In this document: positions 25,418-56,548 of the stretch, piece after piece
How positions within the stretch are numbered: the first letter of the stretch is position 1
Layout of the letters: each line of letters begins with the position of its first letter
DNA from: Candidatus Poribacteria bacterium
GTDB taxonomy: Bacteria > Abyssobacteria > SURF-5
Assembly: GCA_016215705.1 (NCBI GenBank)
Contig: JACRIR010000130.1
Location: 1 to 64,000 of the forward strand
Direction: 5' to 3'
Length of the DNA: 64,000 nucleotides
The notes under the pieces: generated by a model
What the model was told of the DNA's origin: nothing
The model's input: the letters and a program-made list of their open reading frames with translations, nothing else
Databases searched by the model: none
Position numbers and translations under genes: made by a program

Positions 25418-26212
<795 letters not shown>

Positions 26213-26243
26213 GTTGAAATGGGAACAGAGAGTTTACAGGGCA

Positions 26244-26366
26244 AACCTCCCCCGCCCCCTTTGCGAAAAGAGGAGAAAACAACTTCGTTTTCGAGCAACT
26301 ATTCGCCCCTCTCTCATGAGGGGTATCCTGATGACCCCCCTCTTGCAAAGGGGGCAGGGGGGGATT
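26244..26366. repeat. inverted-repeat (MITE-like) element between bioD and bioA
   Basis: Left end ACCTCCCCCGCCCCCTTTGC faces right end GCAAAGGGGGCAGGGGGGGAT. Internal arms are GCCCCTCTC/ATGAGGGG. Reading into it would add 67 spurious residues to BioA. Confidence 0.6.
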
Positions 26367-26419: not shown

Positions 26420-27829
26420 ATGCAAAGGAACAAGCGCGCGCGAAACGACGCCGACCAACTCGAGATAGACGACCGGAAGTTCATCTGGCACCCTTTCACA
26501 CAGATGCAGGATTATGTGGCGGAGACGCCACTGATCATTGAGCGCGCGAAGGGCTCTTATCTATACGACATTCGCGGCAGAAGATATCTCGACGGAGTAT
26601 CTTCGCTATGGGTTACGGTTCACGGCCACAGGAAGCGCGCGCTCGACTCCGCCGTCAGGAAGCAGATCAGCATGGTCGCCCATTCGACGTTGCTCGGGAT
26701 ATCGAATGTGCCGGCGGTCAAACTCGCGAAAATGCTTGCTGAGCGAGCGCCAAAGGGGCTCACAAAAGTTTTCTATTCCGACAACGGCTCGACCGCTGTC
26801 GAGGTCGGCCTCAAGATGGCCTTTCAGTATTGGCGACAACACAGGAGCGGTTCGCACAAGAAGCGGACGAAATTCATCTGCTTCGAGAATGCTTATCACG
26901 GCGACACTATCGGGAGTGTTGGCGTAGGCGGTATCGATCTTTTCCATGAAATGTACCGTCCGTTGCTTATGGAATCGATACGTGTGCCCGCGCCGTATTG
27001 TTATCGGTGTGAGAAAAACAGGAACAGACCCCATTCTTCTGAAGAGAAAAATGGAGTCTGTTCCTGTTTTTCGTGTATCCAGGCTGTCGAACAGGCGCTC
27101 AGGGAGCATGCCGGCGAGGTTGCCGCACTTGTGATCGAGCCGCTCGTGCACGCGGCGGGCGGAATAATTGTTCAGCCTCCGGGCTACCTCAAGCGGATTC
27201 GCGAGCTTTGCACGCGCTACGGAGTTCTCATGATCACGGACGAGGTCGCGGTCGGCATCGGGCGCACCGGAACGATGTTCGCATGCGAGCGCGAGGATAT
27301 CTCGCCTGACATTTTGGCGATTGCGAAGGGTTTGACCGGCGGATACTTGCCGGTCGCAGCCACGCTGACAACCGAGGAAATTTACTCCGGTTTCCTCGGC
27401 GCGTACGACGAGTTTCGGACACTTTTTCATGGCCACACATACACTGGCAACCCGCTGGGCTGCGCTGCCGCAATTGCAAACCTGGAGATTTTCGACCGGG
27501 AGCAGACCCTCAAGAAAGTGCGGAAGAAGGCGGAATTGCTTGAGAGATTATTGCGACCGCTCGCAGAGCTTCATCATGTCGGCGACATAAGGCAGTGCGG
27601 CCTCATGGTCGGTATCGAACTTGTCAAAGACAAGAATTCCCGCGAGCCTTATGACTACAGCGAGAAAATGGGCATAAGGGTCATCATGGAGGCCAGGCGC
27701 CGCGGCATGATAATTCGCCCGCTCGGCAACGTTATCGTACTGATGCCGCATCTCACATTCAGTCCCGCCCAACTGGAGCGCATGGTCGCTATCACACGCG
27801 TCTCAATTGAAACAGTAACACAAACGTAG
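26420..27829 (+). CDS. bioA: DAPA aminotransferase with palindrome-encoded insert
   Basis: 469 residues, class-III aminotransferase (SAM-dependent). WHPFTQMQDY, YLDGVSSLWVTVHGH, DNGSTAVEVGLKMAFQYW, ENAYHGDTIGSVGVGG, ITDEVAVGIGRTG and AKGLTGGYLP with the PLP Lys. Start 26420 follows GAGGAG at 6 bases; the upstream frame is repeat DNA. Immediately after PYCYRC, 20 codons (27013-27072) come from a perfect 17-base-arm palindrome; the reading resumes at CFSCIQAVEQ. The insert lies in a loop that varies in the family. Confidence 0.93.
   Translation: MQRNKRARNDADQLEIDDRKFIWHPFTQMQDYVAETPLIIERAKGSYLYDIRGRRYLDGVSSLWVTVHGHRKRALDSAVRKQISMVAHSTLLGISNVPAVKLAKMLAERAPKGLTKVFYSDNGSTAVEVGLKMAFQYWRQHRSGSHKKRTKFICFENAYHGDTIGSVGVGGIDLFHEMYRPLLMESIRVPAPYCYRCEKNRNRPHSSEEKNGVCSCFSCIQAVEQALREHAGEVAALVIEPLVHAAGGIIVQPPGYLKRIRELCTRYGVLMITDEVAVGIGRTGTMFACEREDISPDILAIAKGLTGGYLPVAATLTTEEIYSGFLGAYDEFRTLFHGHTYTGNPLGCAAAIANLEIFDREQTLKKVRKKAELLERLLRPLAELHHVGDIRQCGLMVGIELVKDKNSREPYDYSEKMGIRVIMEARRRGMIIRPLGNVIVLMPHLTFSPAQLERMVAITRVSIETVTQT
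27013..27072. repeat. palindromic element inside bioA
   Basis: Arms GAAAAACAGGAACAGAC and GTCTGTTCCTGTTTTTC are exact reverse complements 26 bases apart; total 60 bases, i.e. 20 codons. Translated in frame. Confidence 0.88.
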
Positions 27830-56416: not shown

Positions 56417-56548
56417 AATCAAACCGCAAAGGCGCAAAGTTCGCAAAGGGTAAGAAAGTCTAGACTGCGAATAACATCGAATCAAATGAAGGTTGTTTTC
56501 ATTCTCACTTGTTCTTCTTTGCGAACTTTGCGCCTTTGCGGTTTGATT
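56417..56548. repeat. 132-base element with 32-base perfect inverted repeats
   Basis: Left arm (56417-56448) AATCAAACCGCAAAGGCGCA then AAGTTCGCAAAG; right arm (56517-56548) is its exact reverse complement. A 68-base centre. The CGCAAAGGCGCAAAG core occurs singly at five other sites. Confidence 0.85.

Follow-up and report, generated by a model that had tools for sequence, protein, structure and literature searches.

A 60-bp palindrome lies within bioA, where it stays in frame and occupies a loop of the encoded enzyme whose counterparts in relatives are free of it. This unit is probably a miniature element of the REP/TIR-dimer type, moved by a RAYT transposase, translated as part of the loop and kept as near-neutral. 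It was found in a 64,000-nucleotide stretch of DNA, hereafter the window, which contains the following features.

26420..27829, plus strand: bioA (adenosylmethionine--8-amino-7-oxononanoate transaminase), 469 aa, TIGR00508 match
27013..27072, plus strand: 60-bp palindromic element, REP/TIR-dimer type, translated as EKNRNRPHSSEEKNGVCSCF
27013..27040, plus strand: left arm of the bioA element, with GGAACAGACCCC core
27045..27072, plus strand: right arm of the bioA element, with GGAGTCTGTTCC core

Structure of the palindrome within bioA

The initial annotation had described a 60-base palindrome with exact 17-base arms directly after PYCYRC, with neither frameshift nor stop. Both statements hold: the outer 17 bp pair exactly, the full arms extend to 28 nt (93% complementary, 4-nt loop), the element begins directly after PYCYRC, and the bioA frame, scoring 532.9 bits against TIGR00508 (cut-off 405), is open throughout. 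The start of bioA is most likely ATG 26420, judging by alignment with BioA of two members of the same family, G001 and G002. The RNA strand of the element has a folding energy of -40.1 kcal/mol (z = -9.0). The palindrome is not a product of chance, since exact arms of at least 12 nt with a loop of at most 30 nt were observed 12 times in the 64 kb against 0.15 expected in Markov-shuffled sequence; it is one of eight sites in the window with exact arms of at least 17 nt. Five of the six frames of the element are stop-free.

The loop of BioA in its native and element-coded states

The comparison was based on 83 aligned BioA sequences, 80 from the named genome collection and three of the same family. 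The cysteine motif of the loop is carried by 77 of the 83, and in 73 of these it reads exactly C-x8-C-x3-C; BioA of G001 reads CYRC-PLELDKSTCDMA-C and has the loop without the element. The second and last cysteines are separated by 21 residues in the window BioA versus 12 in the native loop. This net gain of nine residues means that native loop codons have given way to the element, so that the earlier wording, by which it "adds 20 codons", has to be corrected to a replacement. A simple insertion is insufficient for this outcome, and the loss of native loop codons calls for either a further deletion or an event of template switching. The 20 element-coded residues, whose presence in BioA of distant bacteria had been named as evidence against an insertion, are absent from every other BioA examined.

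The remainder of the enzyme is conserved. The catalytic motifs YHGDT, DEVA, AKG and RPLG are intact, in agreement with the first description, and occupy invariant or nearly invariant columns of the alignment, in which the nearest named BioAs are those of Nitrospirae and Deltaproteobacteria. The AlphaFold model of the window BioA has the BioA fold (pTM 0.87; Z 49.2 to B. subtilis BioA, 3du4), and insert residues 204-213 have pLDDT below 50. The model is consistent with an insert that fits a flexible loop, although the low values may also reflect a shallow alignment at this place.

Palindromes in bioD and in a TMEM260-like gene

The adjacent gene of the same pathway, bioD, and the spacer between the two genes hold further repeats.

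25424..26212, plus strand: bioD (dethiobiotin synthase), 262 aa, TIGR00347
25583..25636, plus strand: bioD insertion of 54 bp, or 18 codons, placed by tblastn alignment and DNA comparison, ends uncertain by a few bases
25589..25638, plus strand: palindromic core of the bioD insertion, 21-nt arms 95% complementary, 8-nt loop, core GGGACAG / CTGTCCC
26243..26366, strand not assigned: bioD-bioA spacer, imperfect inverted repeat, type CCCCCTTTGC/GCAAAGGGGG

The 18 residues are gapped in BioD of both G001 and G002 (tblastn), and by this comparison the bioD insertion is a clean in-frame gain of 54 bp. Its core is of the same kind as that of the bioA element, but the two are read in different frames (GLS in bioD, GVC in bioA), and therefore no particular peptide is favoured. 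The GTAG tetranucleotide is absent from both strands of the bioA and bioD elements, the CGTC tag from either strand of the bioA element, and GGGGWSAS matches the bioA and bioD cores of this genome only with mismatches. As to the spacer, an upstream in-frame ATG at 26219 precedes the 26243-26366 repeat, which is untranslated if bioA starts at 26420; starting from ATG 26219, automatic annotation may make bioA 67 residues too long.

The palindrome scan covered about 0.96 Mb of this genome, and the count of translated palindromes rests on that sample. A third in-frame palindrome was found in a TMEM260-like gene (PF11028, 126 bits).

L056 2004-2096 (G000 contig C14): palindrome of the TMEM260-like gene, 93 bp, in frame

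It is of the GGGGTCAG type and begins AGGGGTCAGGTCT; TMEM260-like proteins of relatives are 20 residues shorter at its site. It has one open frame per strand, and the open one is used. GGGGWSAS occurs in it exactly, and at its ends it is similar to the GGGGTCAGGTCTTGAAATT / AATTCAAGACCTGACCCC-type inverted repeats that surround the RAYT gene of contig C225. An exact copy of the bioA element is found nowhere else in this genome, so the unit is single-copy in this form, and its repeat class is of low copy number, with members in bioA, bioD and contig C265. The related dimer at C265:27641 has no long protein frame across it. Taken together, related palindromes elsewhere and element-free loops in relatives support, at the level of sequence, the general idea put forward initially, that a mobile palindrome is translated in frame as part of a functioning enzyme.

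Near-perfect palindromes of another type, GCTTATTCGGGGACACCATGC / GCATGGTGTCCCCGAATAAGC, are mostly intergenic in the window.

2811, 29131, 38206, 43654, 44896, 49193, 55799, 57473 and 60490: GCTTATTCGGGGACACCATGC / GCATGGTGTCCCCGAATAAGC palindromes, about 45 bp each

With 63 GTGTCCCC-type matches in the 0.96 Mb sampled, they probably constitute a high-copy RAYT/TIR-dimer family. The abundant GCTTATTCGGGGACACCATGC class was considered as a source of translated inserts and rejected; its copies are intergenic, near gene starts or in ORFs, and those of the ORFs that were tested had no Pfam support. A similar palindrome lies in a 361-codon ORF on C150 that matches nothing in Pfam and did not enter the count, and the arm-core matches at C5 and C81 are partnerless single arms in long ORFs, probably due to chance. 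Another repeat class is present at window positions 56417-56548, with perfect 32-nt arms and a 68-nt spacer (AATCAAACCGCAAAGGCGCAAAGTTCGCAAAG).

RAYT-like genes and the proposed course of insertion

The likely source of the element is indicated by the sister genus G001, which has a RAYT-like gene with Y1_Tnp over its cut-off. Against NF047646 the gene scores 66 bits, below the 80-bit cut-off, and REP-associated tyrosine transposases are closest to it. It is flanked by exact 27-bp inverted repeats AAAAATATGGGGACAGAGACCATATTT, further copies of which are dispersed in G001; the right arm of the bioA element of G002 is 91% identical to G001 repeat copies over 23 nt. GGGGWSAS is exact in the G002 bioA element, at the ends of the G001 RAYT and at the end of the C225 RAYT. 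In this genome no RAYT was found with the GGRACAG class at its borders, whereas a related repeat bounds the RAYT-like gene in G001. Because the exact element is single-copy here, its mobility in this genome is deduced from the relatives. Contig C28 of this genome bears two RAYT paralogues, and the one that was checked has an exact 26-bp terminal inverted repeat, TTATTCCGGGGACATAATACCTATTT, reminiscent of the abundant GCTTATTCGGGGACACCATGC palindromes. The C-terminal region of the RAYT of contig C225 (L035 47-1027) is DnaA-like, at 44.7 bits with the DnaA model, and a like gene is present in G002 (L039).

It is proposed that the bioA unit consists of a short GGRACAG/CTGTYCC repeat present twice in inverted orientation, a type of repeat that bounds RAYT/TIRYT genes, and that it was probably mobilised by a RAYT-type HUH transposase in the form of a single-stranded DNA hairpin. 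The unit would have landed in the BioA loop codons, with most of the native 12-residue loop lost and the frame left open. Ribosomes would then translate the element, and the enzyme, presumably made and active, would carry a flexible element-coded loop. The insertion may have been kept because so many of the element's frames are free of stops and because the loop tolerates a change in length. The same type of event would have taken place in bioD, and one involving another element class in the TMEM260-like gene. The bioA and bioD inserts are most likely tolerated by-products of transposition in loops.

Loop insertions in other BioAs and alternative explanations

In the BioA of G002 the corresponding loop contains GTGGGGACAGACCCC...GGGGTCTGTCCCCAC, read in the same frame as in the window BioA and encoded by a different variant of the element with a 39-nt spacer between the arms. 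About four paired positions distinguish the arms of the two elements, yet every pair is complementary; on the sequences compared, this speaks either for insertions that took place separately or for one arm having been corrected from the other. It is conceivable, and falls not far short of an even chance, that there was one ancestral insertion in the common ancestor with G002 and that the arms were rewritten in parallel, e.g., by quasipalindrome correction. The two elements share the loop and the frame (..RP...GVC-x4-C), both replace the native loop, and G002 is a closer relative than G001 by BioD (64% vs. 52%). However, the arms have stayed complementary despite their differences, though the proteins have diverged to 64-78% identity, and unselected palindromes should have decayed over the divergence time of the window genome and G002. 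The breakpoints and spacer lengths differ as well, and a tree with two family relatives is compatible with one insertion and with two.

The next question concerns the peptide itself. Four spaced cysteines are present both in the window BioA (C-x2-C-x16-C-x4-C) and in that of G002 (C-x2-C-x29-C-x4-C), and in both the third one (GVC) is encoded by GTCTGT of the repeat. The element-coded segment might accordingly have been domesticated, with GVC supplying the third cysteine of a C-x2-C...C-x3/4-C cluster, as the retention of the four cysteines and the near-invariance of the native motif in the BioA set would suggest. This is doubtful, since SR replaces the CYRC cysteines in the BioA of B. subtilis, so that BioA in general can function without the cluster, and the model gives the element-coded segment low confidence.

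Repeats have also entered BioA in other genomes.

L180 3565-3695: repeat insert in a Brocadiaceae BioA
L179 3301-3369: translated CCCCCCTTT/AAAAGGGGGG repeat in a Nitrospirae BioA

In the same loop, the Brocadiaceae protein is longer by 31 residues, and part of the insert is a dispersed palindromic repeat of an unrelated class with several copies in that genome. The 23 extra residues of the Nitrospirae protein lie at another place, not in the CYRC loop, and are partly encoded by a repeat that matches dozens of places in that genome. All BioA insertions of at least 13 residues among the 83 proteins involve dispersed repeats, and annotators should read them in this sample as such and not as domains. 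Three of the four repeat inserts are in one loop, but two of these inserts may be one event, so that an insertion hotspot at the CYRC loop is no more than suggestive, and a test of it by numbers too weak. A broader proposal appears rather unlikely: that palindromic repeats of unrelated kinds have repeatedly landed in this loop in separate phyla and been kept there because it can accommodate residues coded by the elements and in part put them to use, one cysteine of the four-cysteine motif among them.

The explanations that dispense with a translated mobile element fare worse. The hairpin RNA of bioA is very stable and has a short T run at its end, as would a terminator or regulatory hairpin merely located in the gene; this is most improbable, considering that the hairpin lies mid-gene, that the half of BioA downstream of it, catalytic motifs included, is conserved and open, and that like elements occur at unrelated positions. 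Hairpin-rich inserts are bypassed in a few known systems, but that the inserted RNA is removed or skipped here (as an intron or by translational bypassing), giving a protein without the residues, is hardly credible, given that the three different inserts of this genome all keep the frame, contain no stop and need no removal, and that the TMEM260-like gene uses the sole open frame per strand of its element. An assembly artefact, which a draft of 270 contigs could contain, is scarcely to be entertained in view of the like element at the same place in the independent genome G002 and the open frames in bioA, bioD and the TMEM260-like gene.

Significance

With the unit taken as a RAYT-moved element, this 5.5-Mb genome of a little-known lineage offers translated palindromes beyond Rickettsia, together with a likely transposase source and matched sites free of inserts. 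Two adjacent genes of one pathway, bioD and bioA, were hit, and the BioA loop was hit by different repeats in different lineages. Both enzymes are easily assayed by complementation, and hence it is directly testable whether the inserts are neutral, harmful or reused. The most interesting point is whether the element-coded GVC cysteine might stand in for the third cysteine of the native loop.

Comparison with known systems

Translated mobile palindromes became known through Rickettsia, and the initial annotation had placed the bioA element beside them. The analogy holds for the way of working: in both cases a palindrome absent from relatives lies in frame in a housekeeping enzyme. It does not extend to membership. 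The Rickettsia elements are 105-146 bp long (PMC2229807) and some of their families are CGTC-tagged (RPE-4, RPE-6; PMC3733652), whereas the bioA element measures 60 bp, has no CGTC and resembles RAYT inverted repeats; the two are set apart by description, and a RAYT-type origin is likelier here than a Rickettsia-type one. ERIC/IRU and Correia/NEMIS, too, are palindromic elements of small size, able to form in-frame fusions with genes (PMC2229807), but at about 100-200 bp and with target duplication they also differ by description from the 60-bp unit. REPINs share with it the arrangement of two inverted REP units and a spacer and are thought to be mobilised in trans by RAYT; in contrast to them, the bioA element is without GTAG and its class without a high-copy population in this genome.

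The closest known kind is the TIR repeats of transposase genes together with intragenic REPs, and translated REPs have already been published. TIR families bound RAYT-like/TIRYT genes, and only some of them share the GGGGWSAS motif (PMC3733652); the bioA element is alike in being a short palindrome and an inverted dimer, and its class in being dispersed (in bioA, bioD and C265, with copies in G001). REPs were reported within ORFs, where more than half of the inserts are dimers or grouped repeats coding for 20-30 residues, and, in a case similar to that of the BioA loop, recB of two Xanthomonas species was reported to have different REPs at about one site (PMC3733652). What differs from these intragenic REPs is the lack of a GTAG/CGTC tag, the low copy number, the hosts (bioA, bioD and the TMEM260-like gene) and the replacement of native codons in BioA. 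In the present set one BioA loop was hit in several lineages, two of the cases possibly being one event.
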